From Bacillota bacterium (GTDB taxonomy: Bacteria; Bacillota; Sulfobacillia; Sulfobacillales; Sulfobacillaceae), in contig JAJYHT010000053.1 in the NCBI GenBank assembly GCA_021784595.1, forward strand, positions 45,531-109,530: a stretch of 64,000 bases of DNA, read 5' to 3'. Below the pieces are notes generated by a model. The model ran no database searches and was not told the origin of the DNA. It saw only the letters and a list, made by a program, of their open reading frames with translations. Shown piece by piece: positions 2,578 through 54,595 of this stretch (the first letter of the stretch is position 1; each line of letters opens with the position of its first letter). The translations under genes were made by a program, and so were the position numbers.

Positions 2578-2814
2578 ATGGCTGTTGTGGTCTACACCAC
2601 CCCCACCTGACCCCATTGCCGGACTGCTAAAAAGTTCTTGCAGGAGCGCAAAGTCCCTTTTAAAGAAGTGGATGTTTCCAAAGGGCCCCAAGCGGCGCAA
2701 GAACTGCAGCGAAAGTCTGGGCAAACCGGCGTGCCGGTGATCATAGTGAATGGAACGGTGATTGTGGGGTTTGACCGTCCTAAGTTAGTGCGGGCATTGG
2801 GTGTTCGTGAATAA
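2578..2814 (+). CDS. YruB-type glutaredoxin with in-frame TGA at the active-site cysteine (probable selenoprotein)
   Basis: From ATG 2578 the frame reads MAVVVYTTPT, then TGA at 2608-2610, then PHCRTAKKFLQERKVPF and on to TAA at 2812. That is 78 codons with the TGA as codon 11. The product matches small glutaredoxins of the YruB type: YTTPxCPxC near the N-terminus, TGVPVIIVNG (the cis-proline loop) and a GFDRPKL segment. The TGA replaces precisely the first, nucleophilic cysteine of CPHC, and the frame is intact on both sides. The simplest reading is selenocysteine (UPHC). It would act as a cytosolic thiol/selenol reductase. A hairpin after the TGA fits a bacterial SECIS. It converges on a second gene with the same arrangement. 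Alternatives are Cys-inserting suppression or a nonsense mutation, the latter unlikely given the twin case. Confidence 0.82.
2608..2637 (+). other. Recoded TGA and candidate SECIS hairpin of the glutaredoxin gene
   Basis: The TGA at 2608-2610 is followed by GGACT at 2621-2625, a seven-base loop GCTAAAA at 2626-2632, and AGTTC at 2633-2637. This makes a five-pair stem with one G-U pair. The loop begins 16 bases after the TGA and its first base is G, as in published descriptions of bacterial SECIS elements (small apical loop, early G, roughly 16-37 bases from the UGA). An alternative fold pairs 2621-2625 with AGTCC at 2652-2656. The element is weaker than that of the neighbouring gene and rests on manual folding only. 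Confidence 0.5.
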
Positions 2815-2817
2815 AAA

Positions 2818-2855
2818 GAAAGGACCCTTTTCAAGAAGGGTCCTTTCTTTATTAT
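2818..2855. terminator. Bidirectional terminator shared by the two convergent TGA-containing genes
   Basis: A perfect 12-pair stem (GAAAGGACCCTT at 2818-2829 with its complement at 2836-2847) has a six-base loop. It is flanked by A-rich sequence on the left and T-rich sequence on the right, so it can stop transcription from both sides. It lies between the two stop codons at 2814 and 2852. Confidence 0.85.
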
Positions 2856-3502
2856 TGTTTTTGGGCGTCCAACACCAGTTTTAGCAGTTGCGCCTCGGGG
2901 ACCGCGCCAGTCACCTCGAGTTTGCCGTTAATCATAGACTTGGGAACCCCATAGACGCTATATTTGCTGGATAGCTCGGGAAATTCCCCCGCATCAATCA
3001 TATCAGCTACAATGTGCGGTGAAGCCAATGCCATATCATGAGCCAGGCGTACAGCCCGGGGACAATATGGTCAGGTGGGGGTTGTAAAGACCTGAATGTG
3101 AAGCGGCTTTGAAATCGTGGCTAACGCCTCACGCGCCTGATCGCTAAGACCGCTGGTATGTGTGGATACCGCTTTGAGCGCTTCAAGAAAAGCACCAAAT
3201 TCATGCCCGCTGGGAATTCCTAAAAATCTCACTCCCGTTCGATTTCCGGTGTTGTCTAAGAGCTCGGCGACAGGACCTGTAATAGTCTCATTGCCGCCAT
3301 GCCCCGGTTCTAGCATCGGAGCCTTCTCGGTAGTTTTGACCATCACTAAATCGGAAAGGTCCGCCACTTCATTAATCAATTCGTTAAAAGTCTCTGCCAT
3401 TTCGGCTTCGGGTCCAGCGTAAAATTCGACGGTGACGGCATCCTGCATGCCGTCAAAGAACTGCGAGACTTGTTGGCTTACTTGACTGTCGAGCAATGCC
3501 AT
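2852..3502 (-). CDS. Two-domain glutaredoxin-like protein disulfide oxidoreductase with in-frame TGA at CxxC (probable selenoprotein)
   Basis: The ATG at 3502 follows AAAGGAGGTG eight bases upstream. The frame runs 143 codons (MALLDSQVSQQ...HIQVFTTPT), meets TGA at 3073-3071, and continues PYCPRAVRLAHDMALASPHIVADMI... to TAA at 2852. The total is 216 residues with codon 144 recoded. Length and layout match the PDO/GlrX family: an N-terminal thioredoxin-fold half without its own CxxC, then a second half with FTTPTCPYCP, here UPYC. The cis-proline is in YGVPKSMING. A strong SECIS candidate follows the TGA. It is the last gene of the leftward persulfide operon (dioxygenase-like, rhodanese, then this). 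A role in reducing protein disulfides or persulfides is inferred from that context. Gene callers will split it into two fragments. Confidence 0.85.
3031..3073 (-). other. Recoded TGA and strong SECIS candidate in the oxidoreductase gene
   Basis: On the reverse strand, TGA (3073-3071) is followed at once by CCATAT (3070-3065). This pairs perfectly with ATATGG (3036-3031). Inside lies a six-pair stem CCGGGC/GCCTGG (3059-3054 with 3048-3043, one G-U pair) closing a five-base loop TGTAC (3053-3049). The loop starts 18 bases after the TGA and contains GU, closely like the E. coli fdhF element in spacing and loop size. The two stems are separated by a small internal loop. Confidence 0.75.
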
Positions 3503-3537
3503 GACTACAACACCTCCTTTTCTAAAAGATAGACGCT

Positions 3538-4158
3538 TTAAGTGCGTTGCACGGGATGGCGTGCCCCGATCCATAATGACATCCCGCCGACCACGTTGGC
3601 GACGTTAAACCCTTGTTGGGAAAGCCAAGCTGCGACCGATGCGCTTCGGCTGCCCGATGCACAGACAATGGCGTGGGGCTTAGCTTTGTCGAGTTCCGAC
3701 ATGCGCGCTTGCAATTGTCCCATGGGAATGCTGATAGCACCAGGAATAATGCCAGATCGCAATTCATAGGATTCCCGAACATCCACAACAATATAATTGT
3801 CAAGGTTTTGCAAGAGCTCGTCAACGGTTAAGTCATGAACTCGTGCAACCGGTAGGCCAGCTTGTTCCCATCCCTTGACGCCTTGATCAAAAACGAAGGG
3901 CACGGTAATACCTGCTTCTTCAAGGCTATCTTTGGCCGATTGCGCAATCACACTATTTTCCGCGAAAATTCCGATGGGAGGATTTTGCCCATTTAAGGCC
4001 CTCTTTACCTCCTGGCCCCACTGGCGGCGATGGAATGGGAAGTTGTAGCTCCCCGCCGGATGCGCCTTAGAGTAAGCATGAGGCGGATTGACATCGAGTA
4101 AGATAACCGAACCTTGCTGTACTTGATTCATAAAATCCTGCGCAGTCATAGATGCCAT
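3538..4158 (-). CDS. Tandem rhodanese-domain sulfurtransferase
   Basis: 206 residues from ATG 4158; an AGAAGGAGG lies about 12 bases upstream. Two rhodanese folds are in tandem. The first (about 1-105) has FAENSV where the active loop should be and no cysteine, so it is probably structural. The second (about 106-206) keeps DVRE, then the active loop CASGSRS with Cys166, matching the six-residue loop of sulfur-transferring rhodaneses. It should carry sulfane sulfur as a cysteine persulfide in the cytosol. It follows the dioxygenase-like gene by 28 bases and precedes the TGA-containing oxidoreductase by 35, so all three are probably one transcript. Rhodanese next to persulfide dioxygenase is a known pairing in sulfide detoxification. 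Confidence 0.88.
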   Translation of the reverse strand: MASMTAQDFMNQVQQGSVILLDVNPPHAYSKAHPAGSYNFPFHRRQWGQEVKRALNGQNPPIGIFAENSVIAQSAKDSLEEAGITVPFVFDQGVKGWEQAGLPVARVHDLTVDELLQNLDNYIVVDVRESYELRSGIIPGAISIPMGQLQARMSELDKAKPHAIVCASGSRSASVAAWLSQQGFNVANVVGGMSLWIGARHPVQRT

Positions 4159-4186: not shown

Positions 4187-4948
4187 TTAGACAGGCGCGG
4201 CCACGCCCAAGTTTTCAGCGCGGATAGCGGCTGCACTCTCTGGGGGCGGTTTTAAGAGCATGAGTACCTGTTCCACAAATTCGTCAGGTTCCGTGAATTG
4301 CACAAATCGGTTCCATCGACGTTCATAGCCAATGGTGGATACCGGTTTGGAACTGAGAAAAAGCCCTCCGCAGGCAGACGCCCCGTAATGTGCCGGATAT
4401 AACTCGCATGTATCAGGCAATGTTAAAATTTTGTCGCGAATCGAATGAAACTGATCCAAAGCGGCTGCTTTAACCATTTCGGGGGTTGGGTCCGCTAGGT
4501 CTGGTCGTCCAACATCTCCCACAAACAATGAGTCGCCACTCAGTATGAGCCATGGTTCAGAAGCCCTGGTGGCATCGGTTACGACAAGAGAAATACTATC
4601 AGGGGTATGACCAGGAGTTTCCCACACCACGGCTTTGACGTGTCCTAAGTCAATGGTGTCGTTCTGACGAAGCGGATTGAAATCATAGGCTACAGGAGCC
4701 CGATGGCTGAGCGAGACCGGCACGCCCGTTTTTTGAGATAACTCGCGGGCCGCTGAATGATGATCGGCATGCACATGGGTTTCGACTATGGCCGTTATCT
4801 CCAGTCCTAACTCGGCCGCTCCTAAGATATACGAATCAGCTCCTAGATTGCCCAACGGATCTACCACCATAGCCTGCCCTTGTGCCTCGTCGCCTAGCAG
4901 AAATGAAGCGCACCCCAGTGACCCGTCCCACATCGGCACAAAAATCAT
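4187..4948 (-). CDS. Metallo-beta-lactamase-fold hydrolase, persulfide dioxygenase (ETHE1/CstB)-like
   Basis: 253 residues; GGAGGGAGAGC precedes the ATG. It has the metal-binding motif THVHADH (His58, His60, Asp62, His63), the TPGHTPDS histidine, GDSLFVGDVGRPDL and a late YPAHYGAS histidine. This is the pattern of the ETHE1/CstB branch, with a GRPDL aspartate, and not of classic glyoxalase II. The expected reaction is iron-dependent oxidation of glutathione or low-molecular-weight thiol persulfide to sulfite. The first gene of a leftward operon with a rhodanese and the selenoprotein oxidoreductase, it lies directly under the operator at 4967-4984. Assignment to persulfide rather than thioester chemistry rests on motif and context. 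Confidence 0.85.
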   Translation of the reverse strand: MIFVPMWDGSLGCASFLLGDEAQGQAMVVDPLGNLGADSYILGAAELGLEITAIVETHVHADHHSAARELSQKTGVPVSLSHRAPVAYDFNPLRQNDTIDLGHVKAVVWETPGHTPDSISLVVTDATRASEPWLILSGDSLFVGDVGRPDLADPTPEMVKAAALDQFHSIRDKILTLPDTCELYPAHYGASACGGLFLSSKPVSTIGYERRWNRFVQFTEPDEFVEQVLMLLKPPPESAAAIRAENLGVAAPV

Positions 4949-4986: not shown

Positions 4987-5379
4987 ATGACGGTAGCAGC
5001 AAAAAAAGTCAACGGTATTTGTTTTGGCGGATCTAGCAAACTACTCTTAAGGGTAACCAGGGAGGGGATTATTATTCCAGACAAAGAACAGCCTGTGCGA
5101 CCTGTGGTTATCGGGCAATATTGGGATACGGGGGACTTGATTCGTCGGATGCGCCGTATTGAAGGACAAGCTCGGGGCATACAAGCGATGTTAGAACGCG
5201 AAGAAGACTGCAAGGCCATCTTAACGCAATTGGCGGCCATGGCTGGAGCGCTGAATCAAGTGTCGCGAGTGGTAGGAGCTTGTGGATTAGTGGATAGCCT
5301 GAGACGAGAGGCTTCTCTGTTGAATCCGGATGATATAAGGGCTGTGCTGGAGGACTTGCAATCGAGAGGAAGACTATAA
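4987..5379 (+). CDS. CsoR/FrmR/CstR-family transcriptional repressor
   Basis: The DUF156 core is clear: LIRRMRRIEGQARGIQ, then a cysteine (EEDC), ILTQLAAMAGALNQV, and a second cysteine (GAC) 24 residues later. CsoR copper sensors have Cys-His-Cys and CstR persulfide sensors have two cysteines. Two cysteines and no histidine here favour a CstR-like persulfide sensor, though the spacing is shorter than usual. ATG 4987 overlaps the TATAAT and has no ribosome site. The best site, GGAGG at 5061-5065, is followed only by ATT codons (5068, 5071, 5074), so a rare ATT start giving about 103 residues is possible. That is closer to family length than 130. It likely represses the divergent operon through the palindrome at 4967. 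Confidence 0.85.
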   Translation: MTVAAKKVNGICFGGSSKLLLRVTREGIIIPDKEQPVRPVVIGQYWDTGDLIRRMRRIEGQARGIQAMLEREEDCKAILTQLAAMAGALNQVSRVVGACGLVDSLRREASLLNPDDIRAVLEDLQSRGRL

Positions 5380-5404: not shown

Positions 5405-5785
5405 ATGCTGGCATATACCAAACCGACCACCAAAACTTTAGAGGACGCCATTCAGAGTGTGCATCAAGCGGTGGACGCACACGGGTTTAAGGTGCTTAAT
5501 GTGTTGAATATTGGGGAGATCCTAAAAACTAAGGGATTTGAGCGGGAGCCCATTGTCATTTTAGAAGTTTGTCATGCTAAGTCTGCAGCTGCCATGTTGT
5601 CTGAAACCATCGACATTGGATTGCTGCTACCGTGTAAAATCAATGTCTACCGCCAGGACGGGGAGATATCCATTTCAGCTTTGGATCCCACGATGATTAG
5701 CCAATTTTTTGACCAACCCAGCGTAACCTCGATGGCCAAGGAAATTGCCGCAACGATTAGGAGCATCGTTGATGACGCAGTCTAA
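5405..5785 (+). CDS. DUF302 domain protein
   Basis: 126 residues, 25 bases after the CsoR-type gene and probably cotranscribed. The central segment PIVILEVCHAKSAAAML followed by IGLLLPCKINVYRQDG is the DUF302 signature, including its cysteine. The family's biochemical role is unknown to me. It recurs near sulfur and heavy-metal genes, which fits this locus. No signal peptide or membrane helix is present. Confidence 0.85.
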   Translation: MLAYTKPTTKTLEDAIQSVHQAVDAHGFKVLNVLNIGEILKTKGFEREPIVILEVCHAKSAAAMLSETIDIGLLLPCKINVYRQDGEISISALDPTMISQFFDQPSVTSMAKEIAATIRSIVDDAV

Positions 5786-37598: not shown

Positions 37599-38323
37599 AG
37601 ATTTATTCGGACAGCTTCGAACTGGGGACCGAGGGACCTGGCTGTTTATTAATTCACGGGTTTACAGGGTCACCGCAAGAGATGAAACCTCTGGGACAGT
37701 TTCTGGCTGTGCAGGGGTTTCATGTTTATGGGGTCCGGTTGGCTGGACACGGAACCACGGTGTCGGATTTGATGAAGGTTCGCTGGCAAGAGTGGCGCCG
37801 AACGGCGGCAGATGCCTTAAGGACCTGGCAAACGCGCCATCAGGTGGTGCATGTGGTGGGACTGTCCTTAGGGGCGCTGATTGCCATGGATTTAGGGGTC
37901 GATCTTGCTCGAGGGAAAATTGTGGCATTGGCCGCGCCTTACCGGCTCGTGCAGTGGTGGGCGTTCTTGGCACACTGTGCGCGCTTTTTTCTTCCTTCAA
38001 TTTCAATCAATTCAGAGCCCAGGTTCGCTGATCAAATGTTCTCATATCAGGAATTTCCGTTAACCAGCGTGCACGAATTGTTAGTCTATCGCAACTGGGT
38101 TATCAGAAAACGCGCATCTTTGGTTAAACGGCCGGTGTTGATGGTACAGGGCGGGCAGGACAAGACGGTGGCACCAATCAGCGCATGGCTCTGGGCGCAA
38201 CGAATTGGATCTCCACACAAGCGGATCGTACTGTTGGAGCGATCAGGGCATATTTTGCCCCTAGATGTGGACCGTCAGACCGTATTTTCCCTGTGTGCAC
38301 AATTCTTAGAGGATCAGGAGTAA
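37589..38323 (+). CDS. Est30-like carboxylesterase
   Basis: 244 residues, overlapping secG by ten bases. Oxyanion strand LLIHGFTGSP, nucleophile GLSLGA, acid in VQGGQDKTVAP and histidine in RSGHILPLD give a full triad. It matches the monoacylglycerol lipase/Est30 esterase always found between secG and rnr in Bacillus-like genomes. Soluble. Confidence 0.92.
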   Translation: MAVKIYSDSFELGTEGPGCLLIHGFTGSPQEMKPLGQFLAVQGFHVYGVRLAGHGTTVSDLMKVRWQEWRRTAADALRTWQTRHQVVHVVGLSLGALIAMDLGVDLARGKIVALAAPYRLVQWWAFLAHCARFFLPSISINSEPRFADQMFSYQEFPLTSVHELLVYRNWVIRKRASLVKRPVLMVQGGQDKTVAPISAWLWAQRIGSPHKRIVLLERSGHILPLDVDRQTVFSLCAQFLEDQE

Positions 38324-38325
38324 AC

Positions 38326-40458
38326 GTGAAAATGGCAAAACATAAGACATATCGTCCCCAAAGCGACAAGTTGTCTGAAGAACTTTTTGCTCTGCTCTAC
38401 AATCGGGAGCCAATTTCGGAAGATGAATTAGTCAAGCGACTGACGAGACGCCATCCTAGTACCAAAGCGTTTTTTCGAATCTATCGGCAATATCGGCAAG
38501 AAGGTTGGGTTGTCCGGTCGCCCGAAGGCGGGGTCACGGTCACGACGCGCCAAGGACACCTGCGAATAAACCCGCGCGGTTTTGGGTTTGTCGTCAGTCC
38601 CGACTATCCAGGAGCTGACGTCTTTGTACCGGAGCGCTGGCTGGCGGGAGCGCGGCACGATGATGTGGTCACCGTATGGATACGTCCTTCGGCGCAAGGT
38701 TGGGATGGGCGTGTGATGAATGTCGTCGAACGAGCCACAGACGTCTTGATTGGGTCCTTGGAACGGCACCGTACGGGATGGCGGTTGATTCCCAGAGATG
38801 CGCGACGCCCTACGATAGAAGTGGGTGCATCTTCGCATGTTCGATGGCACGCTGGCGATGTCGTGCGTGCTAAAATCACTGAATGGCCCTTGGATCCCAA
38901 ACGCCCTGTGCGTGGTGAGGTTTTGGAAGTGTTGGGCGCTGCCGGAAGCCCAGGTCTTGACGTTTCTATCATTGCTGCCGAACATCAACTGAGCGAGAAG
39001 TTTCCCGATGCGGTGCTGATGGAGGCCCAACAGTTGCCCGATCAAGTGTCAGATCAGCAGCGGCAAGGACGGGTAGATTTAACGGGCGATTTAATCGTGA
39101 CCATCGATGGCAGCGACGCCAAAGATTTGGATGACGCCATTTCGTTATCCCGCGCTAAGACGGGCTATCGGATCGGAGTCCATATTGCTGACGTTACTTA
39201 TTATGTTCCAGAAGGCAGTGCGTTGGACCTTGAGGCGCGTCGCCGAGGGACAAGCGTCTATCTGGTCGACCGGGTCATTCCCATGCTTCCTGAACGGCTG
39301 TCCAACGGCATTGCCAGCCTCAATCCAGGGGTGTTGCGACTCACTGTCAGCGCTGTGGTGGATATCAGTGAATCTGGGGACATTCTGGGCAGCCAGTTCT
39401 TTCGCTCGGTGATAAGGACCCAGCACCGACTGACTTATGAGGGGGTTAACCAGGTTTTGCAAGGGGGGGAGGACCCCCTAAACCTAAAGCCATGGTTCGA
39501 TGAATTGATGGCGGTGCGAAATATCTTGCGCAACAAGCGTATAGCGCGCGGAGCGGTGGATTTCGAGTTGCCCGAAGCCAAAGTCATCCTGGATGATCAT
39601 GGCCATCCGGTGGATGTTGTGGTGCGGTCGCGAGGCATTGCGGAGTCCATAATAGAAGAATTTATGCTATTGGCCAACGAAGCGGTAGCCCACGAATTGT
39701 TAAGGGCGGAACTCCCTGGGCTGTTTCGAATCCACGATGAACCGAGCCTGGACAAAATGACGCAATTTCGGGAAATGATTGGCGTCTTAGGGTATCGGCT
39801 GCCAGAGGCCGTGACGCCCAAATCCCTGCAGAATCTCATCAACCGGGTCAAAGGTCTGCCTGAGGAGCGGGTGGTTAACAGTGCGCTGTTGCGATCCATG
39901 AAACAAGCGCGGTACGGAGCGCTTAATACAGGACATTTTGGGTTGGCGACCGAGGAATATACGCATTTTACCTCTCCCATTCGGCGGTACCCAGACCTGT
40001 GGGTACATCGCATTTTAACGGCGCATTTGGCTCATCAAGTTACCGATGCAGACCGCCAGCGTTGGGGGCAATTAGTGTCCACGGTTGCAGATGATGTGTC
40101 CTTCCGGGAGCGCGAGGCCATGGAGGCCGAACGCGACTCGGTGTCGCTCAAAGAGGCGGAATTTATGGCCGATAAGGTCGGAGAGCAGTATGAAGCGGTA
40201 ATTTCTGGCGTAACCAATTTCGGTATTTTTGTGGAATTGCCCAACTTGATTGAAGGCTTGGTGCGGCTTGAAGATCTGCCGCAGGACTATTGGGTTTATG
40301 ATCCCGTTCATTATCGATTGCGAGGGCAGCGCACCGGCCGTGAATATGGGTTGGGCAATCCGGTCACGGTGATTGTGATGCGGGTTGATACGGGTCTGTG
40401 CCGGATCGATTTTGGTTTGGAAGAAGGATCCCTCCGTCCCCGACCACGCCGCCGTTAG
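38326..40458 (+). CDS. rnr: Ribonuclease R
   Basis: 710 residues from GTG 38326 (AGGAG five bases upstream). A winged helix at the N-terminus, cold-shock domains (INPRGFGFVVSPDYPGADVFVPE), the RNB catalytic core (DLTGDLIVTIDGSDAKDLDDAISL, aspartate cluster) and a C-terminal S1 domain (YEAVISGVTNFGIFVELPN) follow in order. The basic tail is very short (RPRPRRR). It degrades structured RNA and, with the tmRNA genes downstream, handles stalled messages. Confidence 0.95.
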   Translation: MKMAKHKTYRPQSDKLSEELFALLYNREPISEDELVKRLTRRHPSTKAFFRIYRQYRQEGWVVRSPEGGVTVTTRQGHLRINPRGFGFVVSPDYPGADVFVPERWLAGARHDDVVTVWIRPSAQGWDGRVMNVVERATDVLIGSLERHRTGWRLIPRDARRPTIEVGASSHVRWHAGDVVRAKITEWPLDPKRPVRGEVLEVLGAAGSPGLDVSIIAAEHQLSEKFPDAVLMEAQQLPDQVSDQQRQGRVDLTGDLIVTIDGSDAKDLDDAISLSRAKTGYRIGVHIADVTYYVPEGSALDLEARRRGTSVYLVDRVIPMLPERLSNGIASLNPGVLRLTVSAVVDISESGDILGSQFFRSVIRTQHRLTYEGVNQVLQGGEDPLNLKPWFDELMAVRNILRNKRIARGAVDFELPEAKVILDDHGHPVDVVVRSRGIAESIIEEFMLLANEAVAHELLRAELPGLFRIHDEPSLDKMTQFREMIGVLGYRLPEAVTPKSLQNLINRVKGLPEERVVNSALLRSMKQARYGALNTGHFGLATEEYTHFTSPIRRYPDLWVHRILTAHLAHQVTDADRQRWGQLVSTVADDVSFREREAMEAERDSVSLKEAEFMADKVGEQYEAVISGVTNFGIFVELPNLIEGLVRLEDLPQDYWVYDPVHYRLRGQRTGREYGLGNPVTVIVMRVDTGLCRIDFGLEEGSLRPRPRRR

Positions 40459-46091: not shown

Positions 46092-46167
46092 GTCCCCGTA
46101 GCTCAGGGGATAGAGCGCGGGACTTCTAATCCCGGCGTCGCAGGTTCGAATCCTGCCGGGGACACCA
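46092..46167 (+). tRNA. tRNA-Arg (TCT), integration target
   Basis: 76 bases with CCA. Acceptor GTCCCCG pairs with CGGGGAC; anticodon stem CGGGA-TCCCG holds loop CTTCTAA with anticodon TCT. The 3' 49 bases (46119-46167) recur at 59658-59706, so an element has integrated here and rebuilt the 3' part of the gene. Confidence 0.97.
46119..46167 (+). repeat. Left attachment site (attL), 49-bp tRNA-Arg 3' repeat
   Basis: The repeat starts GGGACTTCTAATCCC at the anticodon arm and ends with CCA. It is identical to 59658-59706. The flanks differ on both sides. The integrase gene begins its 3' end 75 bases away, the usual position. Confidence 0.93.
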
Positions 46168-46242
46168 AATTATTTGAGGCGCCACAAGGGTTTCCGGGTT
46201 TTCACCGTTGCCAACGCAGACGGTGATTTTTATTTTGTGTGC

Positions 46243-47388
46243 CTATAGTGTGCCGTTCCCAAACAGGAGGCTTTCGAGTTTACTCGTGGCCTGCTGTTGC
46301 AACGTCGGCAACACATGACTGTAGGTGTCTAGGGTGAGCGTAATGCTCGCATGTCCGAGTCGTTCACTGACCACCTTGGGGTTTTCGCCTGCCACTAGGA
46401 GCAATGTGGCACACGTATGACGCAGGTCATAGAGCCGCAGGTCTTCTGGGAGTCCAGCTTTCTTGACCAACGGCTTAAAGTGTCGGATTCTGAAGTTCGA
46501 GTGATGAATCGGCTCACCGTTTTCTGCGGTAAACACCAACCCGTGGTCCTTCCACCTTTCCCCAAGACTTAGGCGTTGCTTGGCTTGTTCCACTTTCAGC
46601 GTTTTCAACGACGCGATGAGGGTTTGGGGAATCGGTATGCTGCGGCCACTGTTCTGCGTTTTCGGTTCGTCCCATCGCCAGCCACCACCTTTGGCCACCC
46701 GCACCAGCACTTTTTTCACTTGCACTCGTCCGTTTTGCCAGTCGATGTCCTCCCAACGTAGACCAAAATATTCTTCCGGTCGCATCCCCGTGACGAGGGC
46801 GAATTGGAACAACGTAAACCAGCGAGAGGATTCTGCCGCGCTAAGAAAGCGTTTCGCTTCTTCTGGACTCAATGCATACATCTCTCGTCGTTGCTGTTTA
46901 GGCACCGAGACCTTGTCCGCTGGATTTTGACTGAGCATCTGCCACCGGACAGCCTGCTTCAGGGCGGACGAGAGAATGGCATGGGTGTACCGAATCGTTC
47001 GGGGAGTCAGGCCCTGTTCTTGCATCGCCGAATACAGCTTCTGTAGATCCAGTGGCTTAATCGTTGCTAATTTGCGCGGCCCCAAAGCGGGTCTCACGTA
47101 TCGGTCTATCGTGGCCCTATAGTGAGCATAGGTCTGGGGACGAACCTTCGTTTTCACTGCCGATTGGAACCATTCGTCAAGGTATTCGTTAAGCGTACGC
47201 CGTTGCGGAGCCACTAAGGAACCCATGTCATGATCGCGCAACAACGAATTCAAGACCTGTTGCGCTTCTTTTTTGGTTCCATGGACCGTCTGGTTGTGAT
47301 AGGTCCGTTTTCCTGTCTTCGGGTCCCGACCAATAAAGATCCGGATCAACCACGTCCGGTCCCCTCGGGAGATGATTTGTCCAGCCAT
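46243..47388 (-). CDS. int: Tyrosine-family site-specific integrase
   Basis: 381 residues from ATG 47388 (AGGAGG seven bases upstream; the longer frame lacks a site). An N-terminal arm-binding domain (RIFIGRDPKTGKRTYHNQTV) and SAM-like core-binding domain precede the catalytic domain with Arg in GMRPEEYFGLRW, H-x-x-R in LYDLRHTCATLL, His in LGHASI and the tyrosine nucleophile in DTYSHV. It catalysed insertion into tRNA-Arg and points toward attL. Confidence 0.95.
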   Translation of the reverse strand: MAGQIISRGDRTWLIRIFIGRDPKTGKRTYHNQTVHGTKKEAQQVLNSLLRDHDMGSLVAPQRRTLNEYLDEWFQSAVKTKVRPQTYAHYRATIDRYVRPALGPRKLATIKPLDLQKLYSAMQEQGLTPRTIRYTHAILSSALKQAVRWQMLSQNPADKVSVPKQQRREMYALSPEEAKRFLSAAESSRWFTLFQFALVTGMRPEEYFGLRWEDIDWQNGRVQVKKVLVRVAKGGGWRWDEPKTQNSGRSIPIPQTLIASLKTLKVEQAKQRLSLGERWKDHGLVFTAENGEPIHHSNFRIRHFKPLVKKAGLPEDLRLYDLRHTCATLLLVAGENPKVVSERLGHASITLTLDTYSHVLPTLQQQATSKLESLLFGNGTL

Positions 47389-47566
47389 ACTTTTTCCTCC
47401 TGTGTGTTTTTTCACAACGGCACACATTTGGCACACAGCCATCATGATACTGTTGTGTAGCAATGATTTCAATAATGAGCAGGAGATAAATAATCTCCTG
47501 CTCACTAGATGAAAAGCGAGCAGAACATGGGGATATTTCTGGAAGGGCAAGAGGGAAGTCGTCGCC

Positions 47567-47749
47567 CTACATGGCCTGACGTTGTGCCTGAATTAGTTCC
47601 CACAGCTTGTCCCGTGGGATGCGTATTTGACGGCCTAGACGCACGGCGGGGATGACGTTTTGCGTAATGAGGTCGTAAATGCGCCAGCGGGACACTCGGA
47701 GAATGTCTGCGGCTTCTTGGGCCGTCAGCAAAACAGGGTAGGTATTCAT
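47567..47749 (-). CDS. Excisionase-family helix-turn-helix protein
   Basis: 60 residues; AAGGAG eight bases before the ATG. LLTAQEAADILRVSRWRIYDLI then VRLGRQIRIPRDKLWELI is the MerR/excisionase-type HTH (DNA-binding domain, excisionase family). It lies just upstream of the integrase on the same strand and probably directs excision. Confidence 0.88.
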   Translation of the reverse strand: MNTYPVLLTAQEAADILRVSRWRIYDLITQNVIPAVRLGRQIRIPRDKLWELIQAQRQAM

Positions 47750-47906
47750 GTGATCGTCTCCTTATAGGTTTCTGAGTTGGTGGTGCGTAATGCGCGGGTA
47801 TACCCATACGGAAAAAAACGGCGTGAATCCCGGAGCATCAAGTGGGAGCGATGGTTTAGAGCATAATAGACTACGAGTCATAAATCAGGGATAACGGTGA
47901 CAAAAT

Positions 47907-48026
47907 TTAAAAGGCTCGAATGCTGGCCACGAAGCACAGATTCTGTGAGATGTGATGAGTTCCAGAAGGCTCTCGGGTCTCATTGCCGTGGGCTATGGCT
48001 ACTCGGATTGTACAGGCCGGTGCCAT
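47907..48026 (-). CDS. Possible 39-residue protein with a strong ribosome site
   Basis: ATG at 48026 has TGGAGGTGAAGTC immediately upstream. The frame gives MAPACTIRVAIAHGNETREP and ends TAA at 47907. No homology recognised. Listed because of the ribosome site and because the surrounding 1.3 kb is otherwise empty. Confidence 0.3.
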   Translation of the reverse strand: MAPACTIRVAIAHGNETREPSGTHHISQNLCFVASIRAF

Positions 48027-49052
48027 GACTTCACCTCCATTTTGCTGGTTGATATGGGCTCATAGTTGGGGATCATAAAATTGCCCAAATTCTATCAACT
48101 TTAATCACCCCTAGAGATGAAGCTAAATCCCAAAACCGTTACCTACCAACGCATTGAGGCGTATGAGACGCAACGCAGTGTGTGATAAAGGATTCCTCCT
48201 TAAATGGGACTTAATGGAGTGACGGTGACTTTCAACGTTCTCTTCACCTTTATTACTCGGAATGGGTCACGCAATTTGTCCCCGGTTAAAGAACAAAATT
48301 TTTTTGGAAAATAGGATCACGAGTGGGGCCATTTTAGGGGGGTTATCCCGTATATAAGAGATGACAAGTATTCCACGTCCATACTATTGCATGATAAGTG
48401 GATTAGCCCCCGGATTGAATCGAGGGTCAACTCAGGCCGTGTCATTAGCATTTACGCGATTGGCTTATAAGCGATACTATCGTGTCGATGACTCGACATG
48501 GTTGCGGAGTCTTAGATTAGGAGGGATAAGGGGATTGCGAAGGAAACAAACGTCTGCTTAAGTGGTAGGGGGAACAAGGTTTATCCGTGATGACACGACC
48601 TAGAGGTGGGGGTGTTATCCTTGTTTGAAGATCACTCAGGAACTCGCACTGATCAAGCAATACATAAGGTTTCTACCCAAGGCATACCAACTAGAGATAC
48701 GACGCTGCTGCTTATTGCATAATTATGCACTATGATGTGATTTATTGAGAGCAATCCTTGTACACGGTTGGTTAATGTTAGGATACCGATGGCCAAACTG
48801 ACGTAATATGCCCTCTGGCGGTCACCTATAAGGACGACTCGGACAGGACTTGAGACCTTGACTTCGACGTTATTCAAGCTGCGCTGTCCGCGTTACTCGC
48901 TACCCTTTCCCAGCGCGTTAATTTAGCGTTGTGGATGCTACCCTTCGAAGCCACAATCGCTGTGGTACGACCTCTCCCTAATTCCTTCCTAATCCAGTAT
49001 AATTCTCAATATCATCGAATGTTGTGTCGAATGGAAGGGGTTCCGAATCTCT
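48027..49052. other. Long non-coding stretch between excisionase side and hsdM
   Basis: About 1.0 kb without a convincing gene. Short frames (for example 48361-48561) lack ribosome sites and recognisable motifs. Base composition is more AT-rich than the chromosome around it. It may hold the element's origin or regulatory region, or decayed genes. No iterated repeats were found by eye. Confidence 0.5.
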
Positions 49053-50512
49053 ATGGCTTTGACGCTTCAAGAACTCGAATCGCACCTGTGGGAATCCGCC
49101 AACATCTTGCGAGGCAGTATTGACTCAGCGGACTACAAGAATTATATCTTTGGGCTATTATTTCTGAAACGGCTTAATGATGTCTTTGAGGAAGAACGTG
49201 ACGCTTTACAGCATATTCCCGGTGCCGATCCCGACGAGCCCGTGGAATACCAATTCTTTGTCCCCGAACGTGCTCGATGGAGCCATTTGCGCACCATCGC
49301 GGTCAATGTCGGGGAAGCGATTAACAAAGCCTTCGAAGCCTTGGAAGAACAAAATCGGCGGCTGGAAGGCGTGCTGGTTAGCATTGATTTCAACAATAAA
49401 GACCGCCTTCCGGATCAGGTCTTATTGCGCCTGTTGGCACACTTTAGTCAAATCCGCATGGGGAATCGCGATCTGCCCGAACCGGATATGTTAGGCCGTG
49501 CGTATGAATATCTCATTGCCCAGTTTGCCGATGATGCGGGGAAGAAAGGCGGCGAGTTCTACACGCCTCGTGGTGTCGTGCAATTGCTTGTAGCCCTGCT
49601 CCAACCCGAAGAGGGTATGCGGATTTGTGACCCGACCGTCGGTTCGGGGGGGATGCTGATTGAGTCGGTTCACTACATTGAGGCCCACGGAGGCAATGCC
49701 AAGAATGTGAGTCTCTACGGACAAGAAAAGAATCTCAACACGTGGAGCATCTGCAAGATGAACATGCTTCTGCACGGCTTGGTCGATGCCCAGATTGTAA
49801 AAGGGGACACCATCCGCGATCCCAAGCTGGTGGACCATGGCGAAGTGATGCTGTTTGACCGAGTCATAGCCAATCCGCCGTTTAGTCTCAAAAACTGGGG
49901 ACGCGAAGCAGCGGAGCATGATCCGTATGGTCGTTTTAAATATGGCCTGCCGCCGAAGAGTTATGGGGATTTGGCCTTCGTCCAACATATGGTGGCGACT
50001 CTGAATGTCACCGGGCGTCTGGGGGTAGTGATGCCCCACGGGATCTTGTTTAGGGGAAATAGCGAGCAACATATTCGCCAAGGACTTTTAGAAGATGATT
50101 TGATTGATGCGGTGATCGGCCTTCCCCCAAATCTTTTCTATGGGACGGGCATTCCGGCGGCCATCCTGAAGCGAAACCCGAAAGCCATCGGCACCGCGTC
50201 TTGTTTATTGAGGCGTCGCGGGACTTCCAAGCGGGCAAAAACCAAAACCGCTTGCGTCCCGAGGACATCGCGAAGATTGTGGATGCGTATACCGCGTATG
50301 AGGACCTGGAGAAGTATGCACGGGTGGTGTCAATTGAGGAAATCCGACAAAATGACTATAATCTCAATATTTCGCGGTATGTAGACACCACTGAAGAACA
50401 GGAATCCGTGGACATTGGGGCGGTGATTCGGGAATTACGGGAACTGGAAGCCCAACGGGCTGAATTGGAAGCGAAGATGTATGGGTATCTCAAGGAGTTG
50501 GGGTATGAGTAG
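49053..50512 (+). CDS. hsdM: Type I restriction-modification DNA methyltransferase HsdM, interrupted by a -1 frameshift
   Basis: The first frame (49053 on) has the N-terminal helical domain LWESANILRGSIDSADYKNYIFGLLFLKRL, then the SAM motif DPTVGSGGML and catalytic NPPF. It stays in register to GIPAAILKR near 50174. The family sequence then continues in the -1 frame (KPESHRHRVLFIEASRDFQAGKNQNRL) to the TAG at 50510. Zero-frame reading would end with a meaningless tail at 50384. The switch sits on A-AAC-CCG (50174-50180). The joined product is about 486 residues, normal for HsdM. Either a single-base deletion has broken the gene or frameshifting restores it. The C-terminal part overlaps hsdS. 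Confidence 0.9.
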
Positions 50513-51659
50513 GATGTTCGGGCTCACTGAACTGGTCGAAATTAATCCTCATCGCTCTTTAAAAAAGGGAGTGGTCTACCCTTATCTAGCGATGGAAGAT
50601 ATATCAACTGAGTTCCCAGACCCAACATCTCATTCTTTTAGACCATGGAATGGCAGCGGTTCGAGATTCCAGAAAGGTGATGTCCTACTTGCTCGAATAA
50701 CACCAAGTGCAGAAAATGGCAAGACAGCTTTGGTCACTCTTGACATTGCTCACGGTTCCACGGAACTTACGGTACTTGCTCCAAAAAACCCTATCACCCT
50801 TGATAGCGGCTTCTTGTTCTACCTACTCAAGGATTTTCATATCAGGAATCAATTAATCGATCAAATGACGGGAACAACGGGACGGCAGCGAATACCCAAT
50901 AATGCCTTTGACAACGTCCTTGTGCCTCTCCCCCCGCTCCCCGTGCAACGGCGCATTGCGGAGATTTTGGGGAGTGTGGATAGTACAATTCAAAAGACGG
51001 AGAATTTGATCAGTGAACTTCGCAATCTTTACCATGCCACACAAAAATATATTTTTCATGGGCATTTTACTGAATACCCATCCATCCAATTGCAAGACAT
51101 CGCCAGCGTGGAACGAGGTCGTTTTAGCCATAGGCCACGAAACGATCCAAGATTTTATGGTGGGTCTTATCCCTTTATTCAGACAGGCGATATTGGATCC
51201 GCTTTGGGTTATATCGGTACTTTTACCCAAACACTAAACGAGGAAGGGCTTAAGGTGAGCCGATTGTTTCCTAAAGGAACAATCGTATTGACTATTGCGG
51301 CTAATATCGGAGACGTTGCAATACTTGGTATTGACGCTTGTTTTCCTGACAGCATTGTAGGAATCCAACCTAAGACCAGTTCGATGAATCTAGAATATCT
51401 CTATCACTTCCTTAGCTATTCTCAGCCTTATATTGACAGTCTGGCGAAAGAGAGTGCACAAAAAAATATCAACTTAGAGATCCTGCGTCCATTTTTGGTT
51501 CCTTCCCCGCCCTGGAAGAAACAAGTCCAAACCGCAGAGATTCTAACAACAATACTTACACGCATACAACAAGAATTAGATTATTTGGAACGTCTGAGTC
51601 AACTAAAAACGAGTTTGCTCCAAATTCTTTTACAGGGTGAAGTTGAGGTAGCAATATGA
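50505..51659 (+). CDS. hsdS: Type I restriction-modification specificity subunit HsdS
   Basis: 384 residues from ATG 50505 (AAGGAG upstream), overlapping the hsdM end. Two target-recognition domains, each followed by a conserved helix: LPPLPVQRRIAEILGSVDSTIQKTENLISELR near the middle and an equivalent KKQVQTAEILTTILTRIQQELDYLERL at the C-terminus. The two half-sites define the bipartite recognition sequence, not readable here. Confidence 0.92.
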   Translation: MSRMFGLTELVEINPHRSLKKGVVYPYLAMEDISTEFPDPTSHSFRPWNGSGSRFQKGDVLLARITPSAENGKTALVTLDIAHGSTELTVLAPKNPITLDSGFLFYLLKDFHIRNQLIDQMTGTTGRQRIPNNAFDNVLVPLPPLPVQRRIAEILGSVDSTIQKTENLISELRNLYHATQKYIFHGHFTEYPSIQLQDIASVERGRFSHRPRNDPRFYGGSYPFIQTGDIGSALGYIGTFTQTLNEEGLKVSRLFPKGTIVLTIAANIGDVAILGIDACFPDSIVGIQPKTSSMNLEYLYHFLSYSQPYIDSLAKESAQKNINLEILRPFLVPSPPWKKQVQTAEILTTILTRIQQELDYLERLSQLKTSLLQILLQGEVEVAI

Positions 51660-54595
51660 ACCAATGGTCTGAATCCCACCTCTCCGAATCCCCCGCCCTG
51701 CGCCGTCTGACCCAACTCGGCTGGACGCATGTCTCCGGTTCTACCATTGATCAAGAACGGGATTCCTTGGCGCATGCCTATCTGCCCCAACGGCTGTTAG
51801 ATGCCATCAAACGTCTTAATCCATGGATTTCACCGGACAACGCGGTTCAAGCTGTGCGCCGGGTCACGCAAGTCCAAGCCGCCAGCCTCTTGGAAGCTAA
51901 TGCGCAAGTGCATCAAGATTTGACCACGTACTTTAGTCTGGAACAAGATCTCGGTCAAGGGCGGCGACACCAGACGGTACGGCTTATTGATTGGGATGAC
52001 CCTTCAAATAATGATTTTGTTGTGGTCGACCAGTTTTGGGTGCATGGCACTGAAAAGATCCGGGCCGATCTCGTGCTCTTTGTCAATGGGCTTCCCTTGG
52101 TGGTCATTGAAGCGAAGAACCCGGCGTTGGTCTCCCATCCCCTTGAAGAGGCTGTGGATCAAGTGGAACGCTATCAGCGGGTGGCGCCCCAACTCTTCTG
52201 GACGAATCAACTCTGTGTGGCGATTTGGGGCCAAGGCGCACGGCTGGCTCCGATTCAAGCTCCGGCCCGGCATTGGGCGGAATGGAAAGATCCTTATCCA
52301 TGGGCCATAGAGGACTTGGGTGCGGATGCGTTGCCCCAAGATCCCCTGCTGGCGGGCGCGTTGACTCCCGCACATCTGTTGGACCTGACGCGCAACTTCA
52401 TCGTCTTTGAACCCGATGGGCATACGATCATAAAAAAAGTCGCCCGATATCAACAATGGCGAGCCGTGACCAAAGCCATGGATCGCATTGTGCATGCGCC
52501 AAATAATGCAGGACGGGGTGGCGTGGTGTGGCATACCCAAGGGTCGGGGAAGTCGTTGACCATGGTCTATATGGCGTTGAAACTGCGGCGCACTCCCGGT
52601 TTGCAAAATCCCACAATTTTGGTGGTTACGGATCGACGGGACTTAGACCGGCAGATCGCGGGAACCTTCCAACGGTGCGGATTTCCTAATCCCGTGCGCG
52701 TGGAGAGCATCCAGCAGTTACGCGATCAGTTGCTAAATAGCGGACCGGGACAGACGCTCATGACCACCATTCAAAAGTTCCAAGTCCCGAAAACCTCCCC
52801 TACGGCCAAGCACCCAATCCTGAGTGAAGAGAGTAATCTCTTTGTGATGGTGGATGAGGCTCATCGAACCCAATACCACGGGTTGGCGCATAACATGCGG
52901 GTCGCGTTGCCGCATGCCTGCTTCCTTGGCTTTACCGGGACACCCATTGATAAAAAGGATCGGAGTACGCCCCAGACGTTTGGCTCTTACATTGATACCT
53001 ATACCATTAAGCAGTCGGTCGCGGATGGCGCGACCGTGCCGATCTTCTATGAGTCCCGACTGCCGGAGGTGCAGGTGGAAGGGCACTCCTTAGATGCGCT
53101 ATTTGACCGCGTGTTTCGCGATTACCGCGAGGAAGAACGGGAAGCGATTAAGAAACGTTACGCCAATCTGAACAGCATTATTCGGAGTCCGCAACGGATT
53201 GAGCAGGTGTGTCTGGATTTGATTCAGCATTATGAAACCCATATCCAGCCCAATGGGTTTAAGGCGCAAATTGTGGCGATTGATCGCGAGACGGCGGTAC
53301 TTTATGAGGAAACCATTCGACGCCTTAATGGGCCAGAAAGTGCCGTAATAATTTCCGTGACCAACGATGACAATGACCGAATGAAGCAGTATAAACTGAC
53401 GGCGGACCAAGAAGCGAGGATCATTGACCGCTTTAAACAGCCGTTGGATGTAGATCCCTTAGCCATCCTCATTGTCTGCGATAAGCTCATCACTGGATTT
53501 GATGCGCCCGTGGAACAAGTGCTGTATTTGGATGATGGACTGCGCGAACATACCTTGCTTCAAGCCATTGCCCGGGTGAATCGGCCCGCTCCCGGTAAAA
53601 CCTATGGGCTGGTGGTGGATTATTACGGCATTGGCGGATTGTTAGATGAGGCGTTAGGCATTTTCGAGGTGCAGGATGTCCAAGAGATCATGCACCCGTT
53701 AAGCGATGACCTTCCAGCCTTGGAACAGGCCCACCGGACCGTCATGCGGATTTTTGATGGCATTGACCCGAATGATTTGGATGCATTGGTGCGCCATTTA
53801 GAACCGGAAGATCGGCGGATTCATTTTGATAACGCTTTTTTGCAGTTTGCCAAGCACTTGGACCGCGTGATGCCCGATCCGGTGGCGGCACCTTATCTCG
53901 ATGACATGCGCTGGCTCGCAAAAATTCGCATGGGGGCCAAGAATCGGTATCGGCAAGAGACCTTGGATCTTTCTGGTGTCGGCGCGAAGGTTCGCCAGCT
54001 CATTGATGACCATATTCGGTCTTCGGGAGTAACCAGCCTTTTAGCTCCGATATCCATTCTGGACCCCGCCTTTCATCAAAAAATCATGGAGGGACTTCCT
54101 GATCCGGAAGCCCGTGCGCATGAAATGGAACATGCCTTGCGCCATGAGATTCGTGTCCGTCAGAAAGAAAACCCAGTCGCTTGGACATCCCTGCGACAAC
54201 GGTTGGATGAGCTAATTCAGCAATACCGTCAACTTCGGATTACATTGGCAGAACTCTTGCAACAAATGGCCACCATGCGGACCGAGGCACAGGAAATTGT
54301 TCAAGGCAGTCAAGCCGATGGTCTATCCCCTACCGTGTCGGCGTTTCGGAGCCTGTTGGTGGAGGCATTAGATGCTTCTGGAGAACGGACGGGTACCATG
54401 ACTGCATTGGCTGAATCGATTGTAGAAGGACTCCAAGGGCTACGAGTGATTGATTGGCAAGTCAAAGAGGATGTGCAGCGGGAAATGCAGAGGTTTATTC
54501 GGCGGCAATTACGGGTCGCCGGGGTCGTGGAGTCTGGTACGTTGGATCGGTTGACAGGGCAGTTGATGGAGTTGGGGAGGGTACGTCTTTTGTAA
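51656..54595 (+). CDS. hsdR: Type I restriction endonuclease HsdR
   Basis: 979 residues, ATG overlapping hsdS stop. The N-terminal nuclease has IRADLVLFVNGLPLVVIEAK (D...ExK near 134-152). The helicase motor has Walker A HTQGSGKSLTM (about 299), DEAH in VDEAHRTQ (about 398), FTGTPID, and motif VI QAIARVNRPAPGK. It cuts DNA after translocation. All motifs look intact. Confidence 0.95.
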   Translation: MNQWSESHLSESPALRRLTQLGWTHVSGSTIDQERDSLAHAYLPQRLLDAIKRLNPWISPDNAVQAVRRVTQVQAASLLEANAQVHQDLTTYFSLEQDLGQGRRHQTVRLIDWDDPSNNDFVVVDQFWVHGTEKIRADLVLFVNGLPLVVIEAKNPALVSHPLEEAVDQVERYQRVAPQLFWTNQLCVAIWGQGARLAPIQAPARHWAEWKDPYPWAIEDLGADALPQDPLLAGALTPAHLLDLTRNFIVFEPDGHTIIKKVARYQQWRAVTKAMDRIVHAPNNAGRGGVVWHTQGSGKSLTMVYMALKLRRTPGLQNPTILVVTDRRDLDRQIAGTFQRCGFPNPVRVESIQQLRDQLLNSGPGQTLMTTIQKFQVPKTSPTAKHPILSEESNLFVMVDEAHRTQYHGLAHNMRVALPHACFLGFTGTPIDKKDRSTPQTFGSYIDTYTIKQSVADGATVPIFYESRLPEVQVEGHSLDALFDRVFRDYREEEREAIKKRYANLNSIIRSPQRIEQVCLDLIQHYETHIQPNGFKAQIVAIDRETAVLYEETIRRLNGPESAVIISVTNDDNDRMKQYKLTADQEARIIDRFKQPLDVDPLAILIVCDKLITGFDAPVEQVLYLDDGLREHTLLQAIARVNRPAPGKTYGLVVDYYGIGGLLDEALGIFEVQDVQEIMHPLSDDLPALEQAHRTVMRIFDGIDPNDLDALVRHLEPEDRRIHFDNAFLQFAKHLDRVMPDPVAAPYLDDMRWLAKIRMGAKNRYRQETLDLSGVGAKVRQLIDDHIRSSGVTSLLAPISILDPAFHQKIMEGLPDPEARAHEMEHALRHEIRVRQKENPVAWTSLRQRLDELIQQYRQLRITLAELLQQMATMRTEAQEIVQGSQADGLSPTVSAFRSLLVEALDASGERTGTMTALAESIVEGLQGLRVIDWQVKEDVQREMQRFIRRQLRVAGVVESGTLDRLTGQLMELGRVRLL

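Follow-up and report, generated by a model that had tools for sequence, protein, structure and literature searches.

Two adjacent, convergent genes in a draft genome from the order Sulfobacillales very likely encode selenoproteins. One encodes a small glutaredoxin and the other encodes a protein disulfide oxidoreductase (PDO). We are highly confident that both proteins carry a nucleophilic active-site selenocysteine (Sec), which is predicted to be inserted at a UGA codon by the SelA, SelB, SelD and tRNA-Sec of the same cell. As judged from their sequences, each gene is a member of a selenoprotein family that is already known. Two features are apparently undescribed, namely the conserved linkage of the two genes, seen in 25 of 36 genomes, and the form of the PDO, which has a single Sec-x-x-Cys and no N-terminal active site.

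Two genes with an in-frame TGA codon at the active site

The genes are located in a 64,000-nucleotide stretch of DNA, hereafter called the window. The Sec-glutaredoxin gene is on the forward strand at positions 2578 to 2814, begins with the ATG at 2578, ends with the TAA at 2812-2814, and encodes 78 residues. Its predicted Sec codon, an in-frame TGA, is codon 11 (2608-2610) and lies within the motif TTPTUPHC. The Sec-PDO gene is on the reverse strand at positions 2852 to 3502, extends from the ATG at 3502 to the TAA at 2854-2852, and encodes 216 residues. In this gene the predicted Sec codon is codon 144 (3071-3073, reverse strand) and the motif is TTPTUPYC. Both frames are open past the TGA up to the TAA. 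The sequence AGGAGG, read as a ribosome-binding site, precedes both genes, at 2564-2569 on the forward strand (8 nucleotides ahead of the glutaredoxin ATG) and at 3513-3518 on the reverse strand (10 nucleotides ahead of the PDO ATG). Between the two genes is a terminator-like inverted repeat of 16 pairs with a loop of 4 (2815-2850, assigned to neither strand).

A preliminary description of this locus had reported adjacent convergent genes with TGA at the active-site Cys codon, full-length frames of 78 and 216 codons, and ribosome sites for both. The frames, motifs and AGGAGG sequences bear out all of these observations. The word 'unrelated' that the same description used of the two genes is too strong, because both share the thioredoxin-superfamily active-site motif.

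Truncation at the UGA codon would leave 10 amino acids of the glutaredoxin and 143 amino acids of the PDO, the latter without any Cys, and thus all redox residues would be missing. In the protein database, this PDO and its closest relative are represented by fragments of 143 amino acids that stop at the TGA (P0001 and P0002). Elsewhere in the window TGA is an ordinary stop, as had been stated, and it terminates 11 of the 29 open reading frames picked there. Genome-wide reassignment of UGA is ruled out by this count.

Selenocysteine machinery in the source genome

The source genome is a 3.79 Mb draft in 101 contigs and is 97.5% complete. It includes a tRNA-Sec (L001) with the anticodon UCA that scores 72.9 bits and is also called by ARAGORN, and the base preceding its CCA is G. 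SelB (346.9 bits, cut-off 242), SelA (541 bits, cut-off 268) and SelD (351.9 bits) are present as well, and the gene for SelD has its own in-frame TGA within a GUGC motif. Thus, the search for the Sec machinery that had been proposed as a check recovers every component, one of them with a blemish. The selA gene of the source assembly carries a single in-frame TAA (L016:2074-2076), and the source genome is the only one with an in-frame stop in SelA among the 36 genomes of the order whose SelA scores over the cut-off. An intact SelA of 474 residues (P0121) in the protein database is 100% identical over the whole length apart from the TAA, and therefore the stop would be either a strain variant or an error of the source assembly.

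There are two tRNA-Cys loci, L002 of the source genome (G000:C1:18026-18117) and L141, that also match above the tRNA-Sec cut-off. They have a GCA anticodon, a U before CCA, a 6-bp D stem and a long variable arm, and in shape they resemble the selC* tRNA-Cys of PMC7609411. Second matches over the tRNA-Sec cut-off, judged by score only, are also found in further genomes of the order.

Conservation of the TGA codon and its co-occurrence with the Sec system

The order was searched through 42 genomes that represent 15 genera and 3 families. There are PDO orthologues in 40 of these (E 4.4e-39 or better), and the best match has one internal TGA in 37 and none in G011, G012 and G032. The glutaredoxin is found in 36 genomes (E 1.2e-28 or better), 29 with one TGA and seven without. 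These are stop counts, and the TGA of 9 PDO and 6 glutaredoxin genomes is counted in this way alone, without the position of the codon being read. Where the catalytic codon was read, in one locus per genome and with the source genome included, it is TGA in 28 of 30 PDO loci from three families and TGC in the other two. The corresponding glutaredoxin codon is TGA in 23 of 30 loci from two families and TGC or TGT in the remaining seven. One relative, G028, has TGA in both genes, and the PDO of Sulfobacillus thermotolerans Kr1, a closed isolate genome (CP019454.1, L150), has it as well. The resolving Cys of the U/CxxC motif is present in all 60 loci (30 for each gene).

These counts uphold the argument against two chance nonsense mutations at the codons, and the conservation of TGA, including that in the closed genome, excludes sequencing error. 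The suggested comparison with homologues likewise came out as anticipated, with Cys and TGA interchanging at exactly this codon among relatives. Outside the Sec forms, the column is occupied by Cys in all four database homologues aligned (alignment A1). Cys is also found at the PDO Sec site in 56 of the 67 genome loci that fit a motif accepting only U or C at that site, with 13 of 80 loci excluded as unfit.

The distribution of the Sec machinery largely follows that of the codon. Of the 37 genomes whose PDO gene carries TGA, 35 have a SelA above its cut-off and 29 have a tRNA-Sec of at least 64 bits. The tRNA-Sec calls in relatives are made by score with a line chosen here (the family cut-off is 47), and the anticodon was verified in L001 only. 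No tRNA-Sec was detected in the other eight genomes (G006, G017, G022, G024, G030, G036, G038 and G039, two of which belong to the source genus), even with a second and more permissive search; a tRNA match over the cut-off reads as tRNA-Cys in G036 and sits at a contig end in G030. Seven of the eight have SelA, and G006 (97% complete) has neither component. In G010 there is a tRNA-Sec and SelA was not found. We take these missing components to be gaps in draft genomes.

Genus g3 (G011 and G012, 96 and 97% complete) has a Cys codon in both genes, and neither SelA nor tRNA-Sec was found there over the cut-off. Among the loci read, a PDO without selenium occurs only in this genus, which has no visible Sec system. 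In five genomes (G017, G018, G029, G030 and G037) the glutaredoxin is of the Cys type although SelA is retained, and therefore selenium is dispensable for this protein there. In these genomes the glutaredoxin has switched between Sec and Cys without loss of the Sec system.

Selection on the sequence past the TGA

Values of pN and pS were obtained by Nei-Gojobori counts for 10 PDO and 9 glutaredoxin pairs, which were chosen and have overlapping members. For the part after the TGA, comparison of the source genome with G038 gives a pN of 0.037 and a pS of 0.55 for the PDO, and a pN of 0.027 and a pS of 0.51 for the glutaredoxin. In this part pN is smaller than pS in all 10 PDO pairs and all 9 glutaredoxin pairs. 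In addition, the pN of the PDO is lower past the TGA than ahead of it in all 10 of the overlapping pairs. By these counts, strong purifying selection acts on the sequence downstream of both TGA codons. Therefore, the parts of both proteins that follow the UGA are very likely made.

A candidate SECIS element in the PDO gene

A consensus fold of 28 PDO sequences by RNAalifold yields a stem of 6 bp with a 5-nucleotide loop, located 12 to 28 bases past the TGA (window positions 3059-3043, reverse strand). All six pairs are intact in 27 of the 28 sequences. There is no two-sided compensatory change in the stem among these sequences, and the single-sequence fold from the window is only modestly more stable than those of shuffled sequences (z -1.3 to -1.6). 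More telling is the choice of synonymous codons. In the 28 Sec genes, when only those with the majority residue are counted, a single synonym accounts for 96% of the codons at +4 (Pro), 100% at +5 (Arg), 96% at +8 (Arg) and 96% at +9 (Leu). Counted in the same way, 56 Cys-type relatives give 64, 52, 37 and 57% at these positions. The third bases of these four frozen codons all fall within the stem. Codons +6 and +7 are synonymously free, and their third bases fall in the loop. This stem is likely to be the SECIS element of the PDO gene, as judged from its consensus structure and codon usage.

No convincing candidate of this kind was seen in the glutaredoxin gene. Its single-sequence fold is no better than shuffles, a consensus fold of 14 of the 23 Sec genes retains 2 pairs only, and no stem common to the folds of all 23 Sec genes was seen by eye. 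The frozen codons near the TGA are only +3 (TGC in 23 of 23) and +4 (CGG in 22 of 23). This signal is weak, because the later codons +40 and +41 are just as frozen.

Protein families and known relatives

The glutaredoxin matches PF00462 (E 9.8e-22) and passes two more specific NCBIfam models, the YruB-type TIGR02196 (90.5 bits, cut-off 88.55) and the Uxx-star model NF041212 (72.9 bits, cut-off 66). Like the known selenoprotein glutaredoxin, it is a small glutaredoxin with a UxxC motif, and its best sequence match in the PDB is 7c10 ('Glutaredoxin'), which we take to be the Sec-glutaredoxin of Alkaliphilus. It differs from that protein in being of the YruB/Uxx-star type by model, and in being linked to a PDO gene and, in the source genus, to sulfur genes.

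The 216-residue PDO matches PF13192 (E 1.2e-16) and the TIGR02187 model PDO_seleno_TRX (204.1 bits, cut-off 185). An AlphaFold2 model in which Cys replaces Sec has a mean pLDDT of 90.9. Its closest fold is the Pyrococcus furiosus PDO 1a8l (Foldseek E 4.3e-19, TM 0.88), and the archaeal and Aquifex PDO structures 1a8l, 1j08 and 2ayt all resemble it with TM values (query length) of 0.84 to 0.88. The N-terminal units of AhpF are also close to the model by Foldseek. However, the window protein has no flavin reductase part at a length of 216 residues, and it reaches 94 bits with the AhpF model against a cut-off of 502.9.

A canonical PDO has two CxxC sites, one in each thioredoxin unit. The window protein has one UxxC only and so departs from this two-site plan. 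Residues 144 and 147 are its sole Cys or Sec residues, and the UxxC/CxxC pair is likewise the only Cys or Sec in the matched PDO sequence at all 30 order loci. Thus, the protein has a single active site, since its N-terminal thioredoxin unit lacks CxxC. The window protein shares the double thioredoxin fold, and the UxxC in its second unit, with the TIGR02187 family, and differs from it in the absence of the N-terminal CxxC, which is missing at all 30 order loci. An N-terminal CxxC is present in 54 of 56 Cys-type PDO relatives. It is also kept in a relative from Zixibacteria (L204) that nevertheless has TGA at the Sec site.

Both families have been listed among selenoproteins. In PMC13188914, TIGR02187 is given as a predicted 'Homolog of AhpF N-terminal domain (Grx-like domain protein)' with UxxC, and its table places this family below the heading 'Predicted with high confidence'. 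The selenoprotein glutaredoxin (PF00462, UxxC) stands above that heading with ref. 85. Kim et al. 2011, cited for the selenoprotein glutaredoxin, appears in the reference list of PMC9312934.

Genomic setting of the pair

The Sec-PDO gene is the last of a run of three genes on the reverse strand. The run begins with a metallo-beta-lactamase-fold protein of the persulfide-dioxygenase type (4187-4948, PF00753), which is followed by a rhodanese-like protein of 206 residues (3538-4158) with two stretches matching PF00581 (E 1.5e-26). Divergent from this run, on the forward strand, is a gene for a CsoR-family repressor (5005-5379, start codon uncertain, PF02583 E 3.4e-18). It is followed on the same strand by a gene for a DUF302 protein (5405-5785, PF03625 E 9.9e-16), which is a recurrent neighbour near the pair in other genera. 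The order of lactamase-fold protein, rhodanese and PDO on one strand after a divergent CsoR-family gene is shared by three loci of the source genus (the window, G038 and G039).

This arrangement is reminiscent of the cst-type persulfide operon of staphylococci, in which CstB combines a lactamase and a rhodanese. The best PDB sequence matches of the lactamase-fold protein are 3tp9, a lactamase plus rhodanese protein (E 9.8e-41), and 3r2u, presumably also a lactamase-rhodanese protein (E 7.7e-39), in each case over their first part. It also matches 4ysb and the ETHE1 persulfide dioxygenase 4chl. As further likenesses, the rhodanese gene adjoins the lactamase-fold gene and the CsoR-family gene is divergent. 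The window differs from the cst-type operon in having two separate genes rather than one fusion, and in the addition of the Sec-PDO.

The glutaredoxin and PDO genes lie less than 5 kb apart in 25 of the 36 genomes that have both, when a second PDO copy is used for G036 and G031 and a partial one for G032. In 10 of the other 11 genomes the two genes are on separate contigs, and in G009 they are 25 kb apart. Synteny was read for 21 loci, namely the window and 20 chosen relatives, where for G036 and G031 the PDO copy that shares a contig with the glutaredoxin was used in place of the best-scoring one. A tail-to-tail pair with a gap of less than 150 bp is found at 10 of these loci, all in genera g1 and g9. 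Of the rest, three are convergent with 0.8 to 4.3 kb between the genes, seven have the genes on the same strand, and one lacks a glutaredoxin gene within the stretch. Among the 20 relatives the pair often has a CsoR-family regulator nearby, and no persulfide-related sulfur genes were found near it in the eight stretches from genus g9. Therefore, the two redoxins are linked more widely than they are arranged tail to tail, and also more widely than the persulfide setting occurs. The preliminary placement of the pair in a persulfide locus thus holds for the source genus and some others, but does not extend to every genome with the pair.

Other genes in the window were noted. A protein of 335 residues (1437-2444), which has no Pfam match and weak similarity to the NCBIfam model PRK06851, recurs beside the pair in the stretches of 10 of the 20 relatives (g1, g6 and g9) with 23 to 44% identity. 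Farther along, a tRNA-Arg(TCT) is followed by an integrase-like gene (46,243-47,550, reverse strand), and the region from 46,092 to 54,595 is possibly an integrated element, as judged from the translations of its open reading frames. Within it, at 49,053-54,595, are genes whose translations resemble a type I restriction-modification set.

Other TGA-bearing redoxins in the genome

There are six further UxxC redoxin-like genes with an in-frame TGA in the source genome (L229 to L234), in addition to the gene for SelD. Four of these (L229, L230, L231 and L233) are UxxC redoxins, three PDO-like and one a small glutaredoxin, and one of the PDO-like genes is barely over the TIGR02187 cut-off (185.7 versus 185 bits). 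These four genes suggest that thioredoxin folds are abundant in the selenoproteome.

The other two, L232 (G000:C46, about 84269-85126) and L234 (G000:C10, about 38057-38929), are fusions of an RluA-type pseudouridine-synthase domain with a C-terminal TGA-glutaredoxin. Their redox motifs are VPTUSVC and APTUSVC, respectively. PF00849 is over its cut-off in L232 and reaches 22.9 bits against 26.8 in L234. The RluA-type catalytic motif is HRLD, and this position reads HRLM in L232 and HLLR in L234. The RNA-modifying part of both proteins may be dead because of this alteration. Glutaredoxin matches in frames of about 260 to 340 codons, a length similar to that of the fusions, are found in many genomes of the order.

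A search of the source genome with the pattern CCNACNTGANCNNNNTGY gives 9 matches versus 6 for a reversed control, and thus the pattern is uninformative by itself. Beyond the two matches in the window, only that at C44:155166 is in a redoxin-like setting.

Proposed mechanism and alternative explanations

The SelA, SelB, SelD and tRNA-Sec of the cell would insert Sec at both in-frame UGA codons. The selenolate that the UxxC motif provides in either protein could then attack a disulfide or persulfide to form a selenenylsulfide, which the Cys located three residues on would resolve. Reduction might be carried out by thioredoxin reductase or by a low-molecular-weight thiol. In sulfur oxidation, the probable task of the PDO would be to remove or reduce sulfane sulfur or mixed disulfides, because in the source genus its gene lies on the same strand as those for a persulfide-dioxygenase-like protein and a rhodanese and comes after them. 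Alongside the PDO, the glutaredoxin would act as a second carrier with a linked function. This persulfide role of the pair is a reasonable guess from gene context. Perhaps sulfane sulfur is handled in the Sulfobacillales by a thiol relay based on selenium, in which the one-site Sec-PDO and the Sec-glutaredoxin are dedicated partners that act after persulfide dioxygenase and rhodanese. We offer this larger proposal only tentatively and consider it rather doubtful.

The 143-residue database fragments that stop at the TGA are what would be expected if nonsense mutations or sequencing errors had made pseudogenes of both genes. This reading, to which we assign next to no probability, is refuted by the TGA shared across three families for the PDO (28 of 30 loci) and two for the glutaredoxin (23 of 30), by its presence in the PDO gene of an isolate whose genome is closed, and by the strong purifying selection indicated past the codon. 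Alternatively, a selC*-type tRNA-Cys that decodes opal codons, as described in PMC7609411, might read UGA as Cys and make both proteins ordinary Cys redoxins. Among the tRNA genes examined, the genome does have a tRNA-Cys with the shape of a tRNA-Sec (L002), but its anticodon is GCA and not the opal-reading UCA, while the UCA tRNA found there, L001, is scored as a tRNA-Sec and carries G rather than U before CCA. The presence of SelA, SelB and SelD also speaks against such decoding, as does the lack of visible SelA and tRNA-Sec in the genus that has Cys in both genes, and we regard it as highly improbable. Scarcely more credible is the idea that the UGA mostly acts as a terminator under selenium control, with the truncated forms as the main output and read-through as a minor one. 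Read-through could be inefficient in the glutaredoxin gene, where a SECIS is not evident. However, the truncated forms (10 residues, and 143 residues without Cys) lack every redox residue, and the PDO is more constrained in pN after the TGA than before it in all 10 overlapping pairs.

The alternative that deserves the most attention accepts Sec and questions its function. Both proteins might bind a metal or handle a metalloid instead of carrying thiols or persulfides, as has been suggested for Uxx-star proteins, whose Sec may be a metal ligand according to PMC13188914. In favour of this, the glutaredoxin scores above the cut-off of the Uxx-star model too, and a CsoR-family regulator frequently adjoins the pair. 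Nevertheless, a U/CxxC motif with its resolving Cys at all 60 order loci fits redox chemistry of the dithiol type, and the lactamase-fold and rhodanese neighbours point to sulfur. We therefore judge a metal-related function to be unlikely, and continue to favour catalytic Sec in both proteins.

Relation to earlier work and significance

The preliminary description proposed a selenoprotein pair and regarded a tail-to-tail pair within a persulfide locus as probably undescribed. The pair is supported, but the claim of novelty is softened since both families are already known selenoproteins. There are reports of other selenoproteins in this group, namely putative Sec formate dehydrogenases in Sulfobacillus (PMC4378227) and the Sec peroxiredoxin PrxU in S. 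thermotolerans (PMC7409299). By term counts, Sulfobacillus is not named in the accessible portions of PMC13188914 or PMC9312934. A description of the pair is absent from the titles and abstract beginnings listed on selenoproteins in the context of Sulfobacillus, acidophiles and bioleaching, PDO and persulfide dioxygenase, a body of text in which subscription papers are little covered.

Because the PDO appears as 143-amino-acid fragments and the glutaredoxin would be reduced to a stub of 10 codons, it is easy to miss this conserved pair of redox genes in the genomes of Sulfobacillus, on which bioleaching studies draw. In its PDO, the pair provides an example of an enzyme of this type whose only active site is predicted to depend on selenium. 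It also offers a natural comparison between Sec and Cys forms of two proteins within one order, including a genus with no visible Sec system. If the proposed relay is true, sulfur oxidisers that use oxygen and favour acid would have a redox chain based on selenols.
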